Shown in pieces: positions 38,969-55,517 of a stretch of DNA of 64,000 bases. The DNA comes from Methanofollis sp. W23. Lineage in GTDB: Archaea; Halobacteriota; Methanomicrobia; Methanomicrobiales; Methanofollaceae. The notes below the pieces were generated by a model. It saw nothing but the letters and a program-made list of their open reading frames with translations. It had not been told where the DNA came from and did no database searches. The first letter of the stretch is position 1, and each line of letters begins with the position of its first letter. The translations under genes and the position numbers were made by a program. The stretch lies in assembly GCF_017875325.1 (NCBI RefSeq), contig NZ_JAGGMN010000001.1, positions 1,756,140 through 1,820,139 of the forward strand, written 5' to 3'.

Positions 38969-40405
38969 CTAAAACCCGCACTTCACCACCGCCCCGATCC
39001 GCCAGGGATAGAGTTGCCTCAACCGCTCCTCCTCTCCATTGTTCTCCCCGGCCCCCACCGGTCTGAGGGTGGCATCGGTGCTGACCGCCAGGAAATGGAC
39101 CGGGACCGACCGCGCCCTGTTATGGATCTCGTTGAAGGTGTTGATCTCAAGGAGCAGATCATAGAGTGCATGCTCGACCCGCGCCGCCCCCACCGAGGTC
39201 TCGTCGATCTCGGCCAGGTCATAGATCCGGTCGGCCTTCGTGACCACGAACCCATAGACCCGGTCGCGGCCGAGGGTCTCCATCACCCGCGAGTACTGCC
39301 CGAAGAGCCGGGTCAGCGCCCGGCGCCCCTCCTGGTGGAAGTCCACGATATGATCGCCGTCGATGAGGAAAAGCACCTTCCCGGCCCGCTCCAGGTGGCG
39401 GTGGACGCAGGCAGGGACAAAGGCGTCCATCACCCCGGCAACCTCCCCCCCATACTGCTCCCTGAACTGCTTCAGGTACTCGAACCTCCCAATCCAGTCC
39501 CCGACCTGGCGCGGCTCGACCTTCACCGCCGCGGCCACCTGCTTCACCGCACCCGCATACTCAGACCGCGAGAGCGGGGGCGCATACCGCCCGGCATAAT
39601 CAAGGAACGTGAACTCGACCGGAGCGACCTGGAACCGCCGCCCAGAGAGACGGTACACCCCGAGGTCGGCCGCACCGGTCGGCGACGGGAGGAGCCCATC
39701 CTCGAGATCAGAGAGGAGACGCTCGATCCGCATCTTCTCCTCCTCCTCCCCCTCTCCGGCCGCAAAGATCACCTCCTCCCTCTGCCCTGAAAACTCCCTG
39801 ACCATATGGGTATACATCGCAAGGAAGAGGAGCGTCTTCCCTGACCCGGCCGGTCCAAGAAGAAACGTCTCAGATCCCCTGACCGGACGTATCGCCCAGA
39901 GCGTCAGCCCGGCTGCAAGGACAAAGAACCCCGCCGTCCAGGCCAGGGAAGAGGTCGGCGCCCGGACCAGAGGGACGGCGACCAGGACGAGCACCGCCGC
40001 CGCTCCCAGGAGGACTTCCAGGCTGACCGCCTGCGAGAGCCGGTCGGCACGGTTCTCCCAGAAGGTCCAGAAGACGAGCGCCGCCCCCGCACCAAGCCCG
40101 CCGAGAAAAAAGGGGGAGACCGGAGGGGCCCACGCAGTCGCCGACGACGCAATGAGCGGGAGGACAAAAGCGACGACCGCCGCCCCGCCCGGCCTCGTCC
40201 GCTCCTCGACCAGCAACCCAAGCGCTCCAGGGACCAGCAGTCCCCACGCACACGCCGCCGCCCCTTCGACCCAGGGGGAGAGAGGCGGCATTGCCGGACC
40301 GACCAGGGCCCCAGGGGCGACCCAGACCCGCGCCACCCCCAGGACAAAGACCAGGACGACGACCGCCGCCTCCTTCGCCACCCACTCCCGGTTGCGCACC
40401 CTCAT
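38969..40405 (-). CDS. membrane-bound P-loop GTPase of the tubulin-like module
   Basis: This encodes 478 residues. About six hydrophobic segments fill residues 12-171 (such as EAAVVVLVFVLGVARVWV and LAWTAGFFVLAAGLTLWAI). A cytoplasmic NTPase domain follows: P-loop LGPAGSGKTLLF near 181-192, a switch II-like FLDYAGRYAPP near 265, LFLIDGDHIVDFH near 345, and VVTKADRIYD near 386, which equals the guanine-specifying N/TKxD box. This order fits a GTPase of the translation-factor-related class fused to a membrane anchor. It overlaps the tubulin-like gene by 4 bp and is the last gene of a three-gene operon. I do not recognise a characterised relative. Confidence 0.85.
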   Translation of the reverse strand: MRVRNREWVAKEAAVVVLVFVLGVARVWVAPGALVGPAMPPLSPWVEGAAACAWGLLVPGALGLLVEERTRPGGAAVVAFVLPLIASSATAWAPPVSPFFLGGLGAGAALVFWTFWENRADRLSQAVSLEVLLGAAAVLVLVAVPLVRAPTSSLAWTAGFFVLAAGLTLWAIRPVRGSETFLLGPAGSGKTLLFLAMYTHMVREFSGQREEVIFAAGEGEEEEKMRIERLLSDLEDGLLPSPTGAADLGVYRLSGRRFQVAPVEFTFLDYAGRYAPPLSRSEYAGAVKQVAAAVKVEPRQVGDWIGRFEYLKQFREQYGGEVAGVMDAFVPACVHRHLERAGKVLFLIDGDHIVDFHQEGRRALTRLFGQYSRVMETLGRDRVYGFVVTKADRIYDLAEIDETSVGAARVEHALYDLLLEINTFNEIHNRARSVPVHFLAVSTDATLRPVGAGENNGEEERLRQLYPWRIGAVVKCGF

Positions 40406-43400
40406 CTGGGCAGTGCCTCCCTGATCCCCTTCACCGTATAGAGCCCCCGCACCTCGTCGGAGACGTTCGTCCCGTCCTTCTCCAGGTTCGAAAGTTTCCC
40501 GGCCTCTTTCAGGTTGAGCAACCGCTCCCTCGTGATATACTTCCCCTCATGCATCATGAGGACATGATGGAGAATATTGTCCCGGTTCCTCTCATAGATC
40601 TCCCAGTAGCCCCCGCCTGCAATGAGCGGCGAGATATTGTCCAGGAACGAGGCCGAGGCGACGAAGGTGAGGGCGATCTCCCAGGGCCTCGTATGACTGT
40701 GCGTGACCAGGCGGGAGTCGTTGATGTTCCTGAGGGCCAGCGTCTCGTTGACCTCGCGGTTCATCTGGTCGCCCACCCGGGCGCTCGCGATCGTCCGGCC
40801 GATATAGTCGGAGGGCGAGGCCACGACCAGCCCCACCTTCCCGAAGTTCCACCGCTCGGTGGCGCTGATCGGGACCATCAGGTTGTGGATCCCGAGTTTG
40901 TAGTTGTCGATGAGGTGCTTGTAACTCCCGGTGATCTCGGCCACCAGTTTGTCCAGTTCCTTGCGGCCGTTCTCCTCCCAGTCCAGGTCCCACAGTGAGG
41001 AATTCTCGTGGATGAGCGAGAGGATCCTGGGATTGATCTCCCCGAAGTTCGTGAGGTACAGCCCCTTCCTCGTGTGCTTCCCATAGGTCTTCTCCTCGTT
41101 GATCCTGACAAGGGTCTCTGAGAAGGTCCGGTAGTGGCGGTTGAGTTCACGCCGATACGGGAAGGTCTGATCGGCCACCTCCTCGGTCGCTTCGAGGGCG
41201 CGGACCGCCGCCTCCTTCTCCTCCACCTGCGCATGCAGCGCCGCGTACTCGGCCTCGTACGCCGCATGCCGCTCGGTGAACCCCTCCTGGTGCAGGGCCG
41301 TGGCGGTGAGACGGTCCCTGAGCGCCGCCCTGATCGTCCCGCGCTCGCCTGCCTCGAAGAGGGCCGCCACCCCCTCGGGGTCGTCGAGCGGGAGGCGGGC
41401 ATAGAGGGTCTCGGTGATCTTTCTCCTCAACTCCTCGGCCCGCCGCACAAGTCCTGCGACGATGAAGTCCTCAGGGAACCTGAGGGCAAAGGAGGGGGCG
41501 ATGTCAAGGCCCCAGTATTTCGCGTTCGCCTTGATGAACTCCTCCTTCTCCCTCCTGAGCGCCTCGAACTTTTTCCGTTCCCGCGCCGGTTTCTTGTTGA
41601 TGTACCCGACGACCTTGCTCCCAAACCCGCCGGCGTCGATCCGTGCGACCCGCATCTCATAATAATGATAGAGGGCGATCGCCTCGACCAGGTCAGAGAG
41701 GGCGTCGAGGGGTTCACCGCTCTCGTGGGAGAGGGCCGTGACCTCCTGCTGGACCTCAGGGACCCCGGCGGCCCTGAGCCACCCCTCTTTGTCCGCGGCC
41801 TTCACCGTCTTCTCCTGAAGGGCCTCGATGCTGCGGTTGACCATCTCCTGCAACCCCTTTTCTGGCCCCTCGATCACCCGGATCTTCTCCTTCAGGGTGA
41901 CGAACTGGTCGAGCATGAGGTCCACGTCAGAGAGGGTCTGCTCGACCCCCCGCCCGATCTCCTCGCGATGGACCTCCATGCCGTCGAGGTCGGCCTTCTT
42001 CTCGGCCAGGGACGCCTGGAGGAGGTGGACCTCGTCCAGGACCTCCTTGCGCCTCGCGACCACCTCCCGCACAAACGGCGCCATCTCCTCGCGGCCCTTG
42101 AGGGTCTCCATCAGGGCGGCATGCACCGCCTCCTCGTCGACGGCCGCCACCCGCCTGAAGAGTCGTGCCGTGGTCTCGAGGGTATGGAACGACTCGGGCA
42201 GACTCCTGAAGAGTTTGCGGTCGAGGTCGTCTTTGAGTTCGTCCTCCTTCACCGCCTGGGCAAAGGTCCTGACCCGTGCAAGGAAGTCGACCAGGTCGTC
42301 GTAGGTCCTGACCATGTCGGGCCTGAGTTCTGGCGGGACATTGTTCTCGATGAAGAACTCGACGGCGCTGCCGGTCTGGTAGTCGAGGAGCCTGCCGATC
42401 TCGTTTCGCCAGACTTTCTCGATGGTCCCGAACTCCTTTTTGATATAGTCGAAGTCGCTCCGGGTCGGCGGCACGACTGCGGTCAGTCCGGCCTCGTCCA
42501 GGAGGTCGCCGACCGCCTGGTTGAGATGTTTTTTGCTCGCGGTGATCTCCTCCTGCTCCTCGATGACCACCCCGTACTCCTCCTTGAGGCGCCGCAGTTC
42601 TTCGACCGGGTACGAGATGACATGGGCGTCGGCGATGATGAACGAGGCGTAGGGTTTCTTGGCGTCCCCGATGTTGATGTCGCCCTTCTCAAGATGGAGG
42701 AAGTTGCTGAAGATGTACGGGAAGACGGCGTCGAACTCGTGCACCTCCTCCCGCGCCTCCTCGCCCTTCTTGTAGCCGGTCGGGCCGAGCGGGGTGAGCA
42801 CGATGTAGTTGAAGAGGCGTTCGTTCTGGTTGAGGTATTCCAGTTCGGTGAGGGCAACGGCGGCGTTGAGCTGCTCTTTCTCACCTTCCATGGTGGTGGG
42901 GAGGACGATGTACAGCCAGATCTGGGCGGTCTCTCCCCGTTGCCCCCTGATATACCTGGCAAGGTCGATGAACATCCCTGACCCGGTCCCGCCGCCGAGC
43001 CCGACGACGAGGGCGGTCGTGCCCATCGTCGAGAACATGGGGAACCCGCTGGCCTGGCCTTCGTTGATCACCTTGTACAGGATCGCCTTGGAGATCGCCC
43101 GTCGCCGGTGCACCCCGCCGCCGAAGTCGTCGGTGACGAAGGGGTCGATGGTCCTGAGTTCGTCGAAGTGCAGGCCGTCTTCGTCGGGGTCGTTGAGCCA
43201 CCAGACGGCGGTGCGGGGTTCAGACTTGGTCCCTTTGATCTTCTCGGCGATGTCGAGCCCGGCGAGGTCTGAGACCTGGCTGATGTTGGCGAGGTTGGGG
43301 AGATAGAGGGCGTCGTACTCGATGTTGCCCCTCCCGCCAAGGGCGTCGACGGTCTCGAGGACGCGCTCGCGCATGGCGTCGTCCTGGAAGCGTTCGTTGG

Positions 43401-43575
43401 CGTCGGTGTCCATGGTATAGATGCTCAGGTGCCGACCGGTCCTCGAATAGTAGGTGAGGAACCATTCCTGACGGCAGATCTCGCCGACCAATTTCTTTCC
43501 GCACCCGCCAAGCCCGCAGAGGGTCAGGTCGGTCGGGAGCTGGAGGGCGGCGCCGGCATCTCGCTCACGTTTCAT
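40402..43575 (-). CDS. large tubulin/FtsZ-like GTPase with coiled-coil C-terminal half
   Basis: This encodes 1057 residues. The N terminus DLTLCGLGGCGKKLVGEI corresponds to the first glycine loop of FtsZ/tubulin and VVGLGGGTGSGMFIDLARYI (near residues 190-209) to the tubulin signature GGGTG[ST]G that wraps the phosphates; LSIYTMDTDANERF is the strand after the first helix with a D-x-D pattern. From about residue 400 the chain is long, charged and helical (ALMETLKGREEMAPFVREVV, EEKEAAVRALEATEEVADQT), suggesting coiled coil. Length far exceeds FtsZ (about 370). It fits the family of FtsZ-like proteins predicted to work in membrane remodelling together with a dedicated GTPase. The genes on both sides overlap it by 4 bp. 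Confidence 0.85.
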   Translation of the reverse strand: MKRERDAGAALQLPTDLTLCGLGGCGKKLVGEICRQEWFLTYYSRTGRHLSIYTMDTDANERFQDDAMRERVLETVDALGGRGNIEYDALYLPNLANISQVSDLAGLDIAEKIKGTKSEPRTAVWWLNDPDEDGLHFDELRTIDPFVTDDFGGGVHRRRAISKAILYKVINEGQASGFPMFSTMGTTALVVGLGGGTGSGMFIDLARYIRGQRGETAQIWLYIVLPTTMEGEKEQLNAAVALTELEYLNQNERLFNYIVLTPLGPTGYKKGEEAREEVHEFDAVFPYIFSNFLHLEKGDINIGDAKKPYASFIIADAHVISYPVEELRRLKEEYGVVIEEQEEITASKKHLNQAVGDLLDEAGLTAVVPPTRSDFDYIKKEFGTIEKVWRNEIGRLLDYQTGSAVEFFIENNVPPELRPDMVRTYDDLVDFLARVRTFAQAVKEDELKDDLDRKLFRSLPESFHTLETTARLFRRVAAVDEEAVHAALMETLKGREEMAPFVREVVARRKEVLDEVHLLQASLAEKKADLDGMEVHREEIGRGVEQTLSDVDLMLDQFVTLKEKIRVIEGPEKGLQEMVNRSIEALQEKTVKAADKEGWLRAAGVPEVQQEVTALSHESGEPLDALSDLVEAIALYHYYEMRVARIDAGGFGSKVVGYINKKPARERKKFEALRREKEEFIKANAKYWGLDIAPSFALRFPEDFIVAGLVRRAEELRRKITETLYARLPLDDPEGVAALFEAGERGTIRAALRDRLTATALHQEGFTERHAAYEAEYAALHAQVEEKEAAVRALEATEEVADQTFPYRRELNRHYRTFSETLVRINEEKTYGKHTRKGLYLTNFGEINPRILSLIHENSSLWDLDWEENGRKELDKLVAEITGSYKHLIDNYKLGIHNLMVPISATERWNFGKVGLVVASPSDYIGRTIASARVGDQMNREVNETLALRNINDSRLVTHSHTRPWEIALTFVASASFLDNISPLIAGGGYWEIYERNRDNILHHVLMMHEGKYITRERLLNLKEAGKLSNLEKDGTNVSDEVRGLYTVKGIREALPR

Positions 43576-44339
43576 TCTTCTTCACCTCCTGGTTCTCGTC
43601 CGCCGATCCAGATCCCGAGGACCAGAGCGACGACGGCGGCAACGATGATCCCGCCGACGGTCCAGAGGACCGGGACGACCGACTCTTGCGAGCGTTCGTG
43701 GTCGGCAAGGGTGTTCGCCTCCCTGACCAGTCCTTTGTCAAAGAGGTCCTGGAGGTAGGTGTCCATGAAGGGGTCTGAGATGGCGTTCAGTTTCTCGTTG
43801 AACTCCTCGATAGCCGCCACGGTGAGACTGAAGACTCGGGTGTCGCTCTCGGCCAGGCGGTTGCCGTCGTCGTCGGTGAACCTGACGCGGTAGTAGGCGT
43901 AACCGCTCAGCCTGGGGTCATAGGTGACAAGGGTGACGGCGCCGCACTGCTGCACCTGGGCGGCGGTGGGGGCCTGGCCGGCGACGGCGATGGTCACCGG
44001 GGTGGTGGCGGCCGGGAGCGGGACGGTGAAGGGCGTGCTGTTGGTAACGTTCCCGGTCCCTTCAAGGGAGAAGAGGGGGGTGCCTTCCACCGGGACGAGG
44101 TCGGTCTCAAGGACGAGGGCGTCGGCCGCAGGTGGGAGGCCGGCGATGGTAAGGGTGAAGTTCACCTCTTCTCCTTCGGCGACGTCACCGGTGAGGTCTC
44201 CGTCTGCGATGCCGACCTGGAGCCCGGCGGTGCATGCCGGGAGGGCGAGGGCGAGCACGATGAGCAGGCACCACCCGATGAGAGGGGTGCGGTGCGATCT
44301 GGGAGGGGTCGTTGGGCCGACCCCTGGGATCTGGGACAT
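43572..44339 (-). CDS. exported, membrane-anchored sensor-like protein of the tubulin-like module
   Basis: This encodes 255 residues from the ATG at 44339. A hydrophobic signal segment (LIGWCLLIVLALALPACTAG) ends in an LPAC lipobox-like site, so the mature N terminus may be lipid-linked. An outside region of about 170 residues is beta-rich (VNFTLTIAGLPPAADALVLE, GAVTLVTYDPRLSGYAYYRV), followed by a helical stretch (EEFNEKLNAISDPFMDTYLQ), a C-terminal membrane helix (VLWTVGGIIVAAVVALVLGI) and a short acidic tail inside. It is the first gene of the operon; TATA at 44374-44382 and AGGA before the ATG fix the start. No family recognised; the topology suits passing an outside signal to the two cytoplasmic GTPases. 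Confidence 0.8.
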   Translation of the reverse strand: MSQIPGVGPTTPPRSHRTPLIGWCLLIVLALALPACTAGLQVGIADGDLTGDVAEGEEVNFTLTIAGLPPAADALVLETDLVPVEGTPLFSLEGTGNVTNSTPFTVPLPAATTPVTIAVAGQAPTAAQVQQCGAVTLVTYDPRLSGYAYYRVRFTDDDGNRLAESDTRVFSLTVAAIEEFNEKLNAISDPFMDTYLQDLFDKGLVREANTLADHERSQESVVPVLWTVGGIIVAAVVALVLGIWIGGREPGGEEE

Positions 44340-44373
44340 AGTCCTGGGATAGCATCCTAAGATTAAATAAGTT

Positions 44374-44382
44374 CTATATAAT
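44374..44382 (-). promoter_or_regulatory. TATA box of the tubulin-like operon
   Basis: The minus strand reads TTATATAGA about 40 bp before the ATG at 44339. Confidence 0.5.
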
Positions 44383-53815: not shown

Positions 53816-54655
53816 TTACTCTCTTCTTGCCACGCAGACCCAGCGGTCATAGATCGGGTCCCGCGAATTTTCCCAGACCTCAGGCACCCTCCCGGCGGCG
53901 CGACACCACCCGGCCACCATGCGGGCCTCGTCCTCGGTGGCGACCGTGACCAGCGTCTCGTCAGAAAGATCCAGGAGTTCAAAGGTGATCGCCTCCCACA
54001 GCCCGGCATCAAAGGAGCGGATCGTCCCCATCATGAAGACCGCACCATACGGCACCGGCGTGAAATACGCCGTCGCCGCCGTCGCATCGATGCACGCCGT
54101 CTCACCGGGCAGAAGCCTTCCTTCCTCGAACCCACGGGCAAGCAAGGTCGCATCGTGGTCGTAGGCCAACGGACACAACCCCATCTCCCTGAGTGCGGCC
54201 GCTCCCACCCCTGACCCACAACAACAGTCCAGACAGCGGACGCCGTCGATATTTTCGCCCCAGACCTCCCCCAGGAGACTCGTGATCTTCTCCTGCCGGT
54301 CAGGCGGAATATCCTCCATCGCCGGACTCACCGTCTGGACGATATCGGCGCTATAATACTCGCGCACCGCCGCCGCAAAGACCTCCCTGGTCTCCTGGTA
54401 GATCCCGACCTCGACCTCATCAAAGAGATCGAGCACCTCGGGATCAGGCGGGTGGAAGAGATAGTTCGCCCCGACCCAGCCCTCGTCGGTCCTGAACGCG
54501 ACCGCCAGCAGGTCCTCGTCCTCGTCGATCAGGACCTTTCCCTCAAGAGGCCGGCATGCAAGGACCACCTCGGCCGACGCAGGGTCTGCAAGGTCCGCGA
54601 AATACTCTTCAACAAATTTCAGGCTGTCCAGTTCCAGGATCGTGTGTAGTTTCAT
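53816..54655 (-). CDS. SAM-dependent methyltransferase-like protein
   Basis: This encodes 279 residues from MKLHTILELDSLKFVEEYFA. The middle has a Rossmann motif I, GVRCLDCCCGSGVGAAALRE, followed by CPLAYDHDATLLARGFEEG, in which the acid after the second strand could bind the ribose of SAM. The first 100 residues are a separate domain that includes VLIDEDEDLLAVAFRTDEGW. The substrate is unknown. The start lies 47 bp inside the end of the upstream beta-helix gene, so the two are co-transcribed and probably coupled. The longer open frame upstream is not used, judging by composition. Confidence 0.8.
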   Translation of the reverse strand: MKLHTILELDSLKFVEEYFADLADPASAEVVLACRPLEGKVLIDEDEDLLAVAFRTDEGWVGANYLFHPPDPEVLDLFDEVEVGIYQETREVFAAAVREYYSADIVQTVSPAMEDIPPDRQEKITSLLGEVWGENIDGVRCLDCCCGSGVGAAALREMGLCPLAYDHDATLLARGFEEGRLLPGETACIDATAATAYFTPVPYGAVFMMGTIRSFDAGLWEAITFELLDLSDETLVTVATEDEARMVAGWCRAAGRVPEVWENSRDPIYDRWVCVARRE

Positions 54656-55517
54656 CGCTGACCTTCTCCCCATTTCTGGTGATCCTGACCCCCTGCGGGG
54701 CCCGGATCGTACCGTCGACATGCGCATTCTCATGGAGGACCAGGGACGAGGCGACGACATCGCCAAGGATACGGACTCGCTCGGCGACGCTCACCGTCTC
54801 TCTCCCCTCGACCTTCCCGTGCACCATCGTCTGGCGCCCGATATCGATGGCGCCCTGTGCCCGCAGACTCCCAAAGATCGTGGTGTCGGTCCCCACCTCG
54901 ACCGAGTCGGCCCTGATATTCCCGTGAAGCCTGCACCCGTTCCCGATGCTCATCGGCGCCTGGACCGCGAAGACCTTCATGTTGAGGGACGAGTTCGGCG
55001 GGATGAGCAGGGGCATCTCATCTTCGCCGCACTCCTCCTCGTCCTCCCCGAAGAGTTCTGCAAGGGCCTTCTCGATATCCCCGTTCTCCTCGATCTTGAG
55101 GAGCGTCATCACATAGACGAGCAGGTACACGATCACCGGCATCGGGTTCCTGATCGAGATCCAGCCCTTCGCCTCGAACCCGCGGTCGATGAGCACATTG
55201 TCCCCGATATCGAGGTCGCCCTGCACGACCAGTCGCCCGTGGATCTTTACCCCTTCCCCAAGATACGCGTCCTCGGCCACGATGACATCGCCGTTGACCT
55301 CGCACCAGTTGTCGATCCGCACATCTCCGTCTGCGATCACGCTCCCATTGAGCGTGCAAAATTCGCATACAATGATGTCGTTCCCTTTCAGCCCGTAATC
55401 GATGGTGCACCTATCCCCGACGATGACATTTCTCTCGGTCTTCAGGGTGTGCTCCTGGAGTTCGGTGCTGTCAGGGAGCGAGCACTGGTGGAGCCAGTCC
55501 TGAACTCCGTTCTCCAT
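54609..55517 (-). CDS. polymer-forming, left-handed beta-helix (bactofilin/hexapeptide-like) membrane protein
   Basis: This encodes 302 residues of short beta-helix turns (VIVGDRCTIDYGLKGNDIIV, TLNGSVIADGDVRIDNWCEV, IHGRLVVQGDLDIGDNVLID). The helix is interrupted by a hydrophobic segment (MPVIVYLLVYVMTLLKIEEN) and an acidic stretch (GEDEEECGEDEMPLL), then resumes (GNGCRLHGNIRADSVEVGTD). The pattern suits the polymer-forming cytoskeletal family of archaea and bacteria, perhaps attached to the membrane through the insertion. The end overlaps the methyltransferase gene by 47 bp. A trimeric acyltransferase is less likely, since no catalytic histidine site stands out. Confidence 0.8.
   Translation of the reverse strand: MENGVQDWLHQCSLPDSTELQEHTLKTERNVIVGDRCTIDYGLKGNDIIVCEFCTLNGSVIADGDVRIDNWCEVNGDVIVAEDAYLGEGVKIHGRLVVQGDLDIGDNVLIDRGFEAKGWISIRNPMPVIVYLLVYVMTLLKIEENGDIEKALAELFGEDEEECGEDEMPLLIPPNSSLNMKVFAVQAPMSIGNGCRLHGNIRADSVEVGTDTTIFGSLRAQGAIDIGRQTMVHGKVEGRETVSVAERVRILGDVVASSLVLHENAHVDGTIRAPQGVRITRNGEKVSDETTHDPGTGQPEIC

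Follow-up and report, generated by a model that had tools for sequence, protein, structure and literature searches.

A family of FtsZ-like proteins named FtsZl1 and the operon predicted around it, known from diverse bacteria and archaea, were described in 2010 with Huta_2051 as archetype (Makarova & Koonin 2010, PMC2875224); the family corresponds to Pfam Tubulin_2 (PF13809). In FtsZl1 proteins the similarity to FtsZ ends at H5 and T6-H7 is unrecognisable (PMC2875224), hence they may not form FtsZ-like filaments. A vWA-domain protein is linked to the FtsZl1 gene in the majority of these operons and OmpA-type proteins in several genomes (PMC2875224), a linkage that is frequent in the family and not obligatory. 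The 2010 description already covered archaeal operons that include a membrane GTPase, and it implied membrane association of this GTPase partner in archaea. The second group of relevance here is the DO-GTPases, whose Walker-B glutamate is conserved, a subset of which carry membrane segments at the N-terminus, and which bacterial systems join with coiled-coil-fused tubulins and vWA proteins (Kaur et al. 2020, PMC7159879). No experimental or functional study of any FtsZl1 (Tubulin_2) protein was found in the literature searched.

We analyzed a 64,000-nucleotide stretch of Methanofollis sp. W23 (contig NZ_JAGGMN010000001.1), referred to below as the window. A preliminary description made from the letters alone had pointed to three minus-strand genes joined by two ATGA overlaps under one TATA box. 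Their coordinates, strands and starts were confirmed. The genes, called A, B and C here, overlap at A/B and at B/C, and the TATA-like element lies ~25-45 nt upstream of A. The features are as follows (window positions).

44362..44382, minus strand: TATA-like promoter element, ATTATATAGAACTTATTTAAT, 5' of A
43572..44339, minus strand: gene A, exported type I membrane protein of 255 aa (signal peptide, ectodomain, C-terminal helix)
40402..43575, minus strand: gene B, FtsZl1-type tubulin-like protein of 1057 aa (Pfam Tubulin_2, hhalign, Foldseek)
43495..43518, minus strand: T1 loop of B, CGLGGCGK, residues 20-27 (alignment of 24 homologues)
42976..43002, minus strand: T4 signature loop of B, GLGGGTGSG, residues 192-200 (alignment of 24 homologues)
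41815..42081, minus strand: long coiled-coil helices of B, residues 499-587 (predicted helices, pLDDT 75-82)
38969..40405, minus strand: gene C, DO-GTPase-like membrane GTPase of 478 aa (weak DO-GTPase2 matches, motifs, adjacency to B)
39890..40369, minus strand: hydrophobic region of C, residues 13-172, with 5-6 predicted membrane helices (hydropathy scan; helices in a low-confidence model)
39833..39856, minus strand: P-loop of C, GPAGSGKT, residues 184-191 (G[PS]xxxGK[ST] in all intact homologues)
39587..39601, minus strand: Walker B of C, DYAGR, residues 269-273, with Arg in place of the usual Glu
39230..39241, minus strand: guanine-specificity motif of C, TKAD, residues 389-392 (T389 invariant; K390 and D392 nearly invariant)

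Gene B encodes a tubulin-superfamily protein, an archaeal member of the FtsZl1 branch. The Pfam Tubulin_2 search gave 47 bits against a cut-off of 27 (E = 2.9e-12), upholding the earlier proposal that B belongs to the FtsZ-like family found with a distinct GTPase; C as the associated membrane GTPase is supported as well. The tubulin glycine loops noticed earlier were found mostly invariant in the 24 archaeal homologues (G23, G24 and G26 of T1, with K27 nearly so; G194, G195, G196, G198 and G200 of T4). The coiled coil also seen at that stage is borne out by predicted helices that continue from 499-587 to residue 820 of the 1057-residue chain, the remaining C-terminal part being modelled at low confidence; this region has weak SMC and tropomyosin-like matches. 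Like the described FtsZl1 proteins, B combines an N-terminal FtsZ-like domain carrying GGGTGSG with a length of ~1050 aa, a coiled coil and a helical C-terminus. The likeness extends to the point at which FtsZ similarity is lost: hhalign against 12 archaeal FtsZ proteins gave E = 6.6e-6 across T4 to H5, and the profile alignment covers only residues 169-246, stopping at H5 with no identifiable T6-H7. With FtsZ, CetZ and TubZ, B shares the T1 and T4 nucleotide loops, the S5-H5 region and a Rossmann-type core, but it differs from them in the missing T6-H7 and in having a coiled-coil half, a C-terminal domain and a membrane GTPase partner. B had no match to FtsZ_C in the Pfam search, and two ordinary FtsZ genes with this domain are present elsewhere in the genome, making it unlikely that B is the division FtsZ. 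Neither a membrane helix nor a signal peptide was found in B. Its closest relative in the named collection is that of Methanofollis sp. STE_20 (97% identity).

Structure prediction, proposed as a check in the preliminary description, was of use mainly for B. The AlphaFold model of B is weak (mean pLDDT 50, from a four-sequence alignment), and its top Foldseek match in the PDB was TubZ; TubZ, CetZ, FtsZ and tubulins recur among the matches with probabilities of 0.9-1.0 and E-values of only 0.004-0.15. The model of C (pLDDT 47.8, likewise from four sequences) gave no meaningful Foldseek match, and C was therefore classified by motifs and Pfam. Sequence searches of the PDB with B alone and with C alone returned nothing useful.

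By these motifs and matches, C is classed as a divergent protein related to the DO-GTPases and as the constant membrane GTPase partner of B. The GPAGSGKT and TKAD motifs reported earlier are present; as to the approximately six helices, the hydrophobic segments number five strong ones in the window protein and about six in its relatives. Matches to DO-GTPase2 were found in 20 of the 24 C-family proteins (best E 1.1e-5), with the window protein itself scoring 16.1 bits against PF19993, below the curated cut-off of 27. The resemblance to DO-GTPase (GAP1-N2) systems comprises a P-loop GTPase weakly similar to DO-GTPase2, membrane helices at its N-terminus and a tubulin-like coiled-coil neighbor, whereas the differences are the subthreshold Pfam score, the lack of a detected GAP1 or FNIII partner, and the hallmark Walker-B glutamate, which is absent in the window C and present in its relatives.

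Gene A starts with the ATG at 44339 and encodes a type I membrane protein that accompanies B and C in methanogens. Its signal peptide (approximately residues 20-38) is followed by an ectodomain, a membrane helix (228-246) and a short acidic tail, and the juxtamembrane motif YLQDLFDKGLVxEANxLAD is conserved. A had been presented as an exported protein with a lipobox-like site and a C-terminal helix. The signal peptide and the helix stand, but the cysteine of the “lipobox” is variable (PAC in the window versus PAG or PSA in relatives), making a lipoprotein unlikely. A Pfam search of A for GAP1 gave no match.

To place the module, 37 non-redundant archaeal loci encoding a long B (~1040-1190 aa, except one ended by a contig edge) were compared. 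Every one of the 37 has C next to B, and an A homologue precedes B in 31, in agreement with the expectation that the genes would be found together in related genomes. Two haloarchaeal loci (L093:10573-11991 and L094:10706-12079) have a degenerate, weakly matched C homologue without P-loop and Walker B beside a divergent B, an independent case of membrane GTPase degeneration. The order and strand of A-B-C are preserved across the Methanomicrobiales and beyond, and dN/dS in close pairs is 0.09-0.34 for the three genes, so the arrangement is not a chance one. Within the subclade of the window the values are 0.22-0.34 for A, 0.09-0.12 for B and 0.25-0.27 for C, ratios indicative of purifying selection on all three and of a module that is not simply decaying. 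The evolutionary distances of A, B and C are correlated as well (r 0.89-0.94), but without an unlinked control, and this was not counted as evidence of interaction.

What lies 3' of C varies with the lineage. In other Methanomicrobiales the order is A-B-C-D-E, where D has a cytosolic domain, one helix and an ectodomain and adjoins C in most related loci, and E combines a signal peptide with PEGA repeats. Methanosarcina-type genomes have A-B-C-D, and haloarchaeal loci have B-C with a protein of D's topology that is probably homologous to D (hhalign 4.4e-7). In L100 a kinase gene also lies beside B. The Methanofollis genomes have A-B-C, some with a further gene, f11, and the window and one other locus (L001) have A-B-C only. 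The closest outgroup, L003, has A-B-C-D-f11, its D being supported by a model built without L003 (5.7e-52). The f11 genes (L036:8938-9459; L035:8612-9154; L002:14568-15083; L003:7747-8316) form a small exported family of 170-190 aa with no Pfam match, located 3' of C, or of D in L003, and absent from the window species. We considered f11 as a remnant of D and found no similarity between them; D as a GAP1 protein was likewise rejected, with no match among 19 D proteins. A tblastn search 3' of C in the window for remnants of D, E or f11 gave nothing significant.

The window departs from the described FtsZl1 operons in having no adjoining vWA, OmpA or kinase gene, in the presence of A, in the absence of D and in the replaced Walker-B glutamate of C. 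The preliminary description had read the locus as a minimal archaeal version in which A takes the place of the vWA and OmpA parts. Minimal it is, through the loss of D; the replacement part had to be abandoned. A is the standard partner in methanogens and coexists with D and E, and scanning the window operon and a set of archaeal neighbors turned up neither a vWA nor an OmpA domain.

In the order, 41 of the 232 genomes have a match to B, 8 of these being weak, short matches, mostly to FtsZ-sized proteins. Within Methanofollis, A-B-C is retained in 9 of 12 genomes and B is absent from the other three. In the B tree, the Methanofollis type groups with L003, and the sister of this group is the Methanosarcina type (100/99), not the A-B-C-D-E type; G087 contains both the Methanofollis-type and the five-gene locus. 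With this placement and these locus types, the simplest account is a loss of D in the Methanofollis branch. An alignment-based search of the genus for D, with the D of the G087 five-gene locus as positive control (missed by a single-sequence search), found only that locus and one weak C-terminal match in G085. The window thus owes its minimal state to the disappearance of D and, in this species, of f11 as well. G087 has three FtsZl1 genes in all, the third being an additional, highly divergent B that comes immediately after E and has no C of its own (L051:13071-16361 and L038 are G087 loci).

Three further Methanofollis genomes (L034, L035 and L038) keep the ATTATATAGAACTTATTTAAT-type TATA element 5' of their A orthologues, and the ATGA overlaps are conserved as well. 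The module is surrounded by housekeeping genes, and its flanking genes are conserved within Methanofollis; no recognized defence system was found beside it, only generic helicase and winged-helix matches. Just 5' of A, a gene for a PAP2-family membrane phosphatase is present in most genomes of the genus (L036:2482-3483, and likewise in L034, L035, L037, L038 and L002) and missing from the window. A 302 aa protein with bactofilin (polymer-forming cytoskeletal) and hexapeptide-repeat matches is encoded 11 kb from the module (54612-55517, minus strand). That the window copy came from a virus or a mobile element was rejected, given the housekeeping neighbors, the absence of relatives in viral contigs (short patterns only) and plasmid matches that were only distant and partial. 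A haloarchaeal-type B-C pair, with an archaellin-like gene upstream, is found on a plasmid in one Methanosarcinales genome (L090, corresponding to NC_014254.1, the 163,915 bp plasmid of Methanohalobium evestigatum).

The Walker B motif of C is DY[AGSP]GE in every intact homologue outside Methanofollis. In Methanofollis it is DYAGR, DYAGK or DYAGS in 7/7 proteins (7 genomes). By its position after DxxG, we take the replaced residue to be the equivalent of Gln61 of Ras, which suggests altered hydrolysis in the Methanofollis protein. Both losses, that of D and that of the glutamate, fall on a single branch, and the link between the two events is therefore a correlation of one.

The reading that we prefer, with about even confidence, takes the window module as the archaeal FtsZl1 system in a chromosomal copy that was reduced in this lineage. 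B would be a scaffold that C anchors and switches and that A couples to the cell surface. The predicted topology places B in the cytosol, the GTPase domain of C at the inner face of the membrane and the domain of A (elsewhere also those of D and E) outside. B would form a GTP-dependent, coiled-coil-linked scaffold beneath the membrane, and C would be its membrane receptor, the nucleotide state of C setting whether B is held or assembled there; the preliminary description had also proposed that one GTPase regulates the assembly of the other. The ectodomains of A, and elsewhere of D and E, may couple this scaffold to the cell surface, either as a structural attachment or by sensing the state of the envelope. 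In Methanofollis the control layer (D and the glutamate) would have been stripped, leaving a nucleotide-binding anchor, and C probably hydrolyzes GTP poorly or differently.

Bacterial DO-GTPase systems are predicted to act in conflict or immunity (Kaur et al. 2020, PMC7159879), and the module could work in the same way, with A, D and E sensing an invader or rival cell, the DO-GTPase setting a threshold and the tubulin-like protein being the assembling effector. The relationship of C to DO-GTPases, the coiled-coil-fused tubulins and vWA proteins of the bacterial systems, the patchy distribution and the relatives on archaeal plasmids are all in keeping with this, yet GAP1, FNIII, vWA and known effector domains were absent from the neighbors scanned, no viral relative was found, and the conserved flanks and housekeeping surroundings, free of any recognized defence system, argue mildly against a mobile defence island; we regard a conflict role as unlikely. 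We are equally doubtful of membrane remodelling or vesicle formation, the 2010 proposal for FtsZl1 (PMC2875224), in which B polymers anchored by C would bend or constrict the membrane. It has the original prediction behind it, as well as the tubulin superfamily and membrane partners of B, but the scanned methanogen loci yielded neither the vWA nor the OmpA proteins on which it was based, experimental support was not found in the literature searched, and the prominent ectodomains (A, D and the PEGA repeats of E) suggest surface coupling instead. That the module is what is left of a once larger system, now decaying and of little use to the cell, would fit the losses of D, of the Walker-B glutamate and, in the window species, of f11, and the complete absence of B from 3/12 genomes of the genus. 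This is very improbable with the three genes kept in the other nine, the low dN/dS of B and C in close pairs, and the conserved promoter element and overlaps.

The new findings are the reduced form of the module in Methanofollis and the loss, coincident with it, of the glutamate of C; the module is a trimmed lineage variant, not a new system. The widespread D partner is also new, unless D (or A) is among the associated families A1/A2 in the supplement of PMC2875224. The comparison defines an archaeal core of B and C, joined by A in methanogens and by D at most loci, and sets it apart from the bacterial vWA/OmpA version. Methanosarcina acetivorans has established genetics. Its genome encodes a Tubulin_2 protein above the cut-off, and tests in a living archaeon therefore look possible. 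Tying the loss of D to that of the signature glutamate of C yields a specific, testable partner relationship. One form of it, which we put forward tentatively and think improbable as it stands, is that the Methanofollis C, once its cognate regulator D was lost, came to anchor the tubulin-like scaffold in a permanently “on” state, still binding nucleotide but impaired in hydrolysis. If true, Methanofollis would be a natural experiment showing that, in archaeal FtsZl1 systems, C has in D its GTPase-activating or switching partner.
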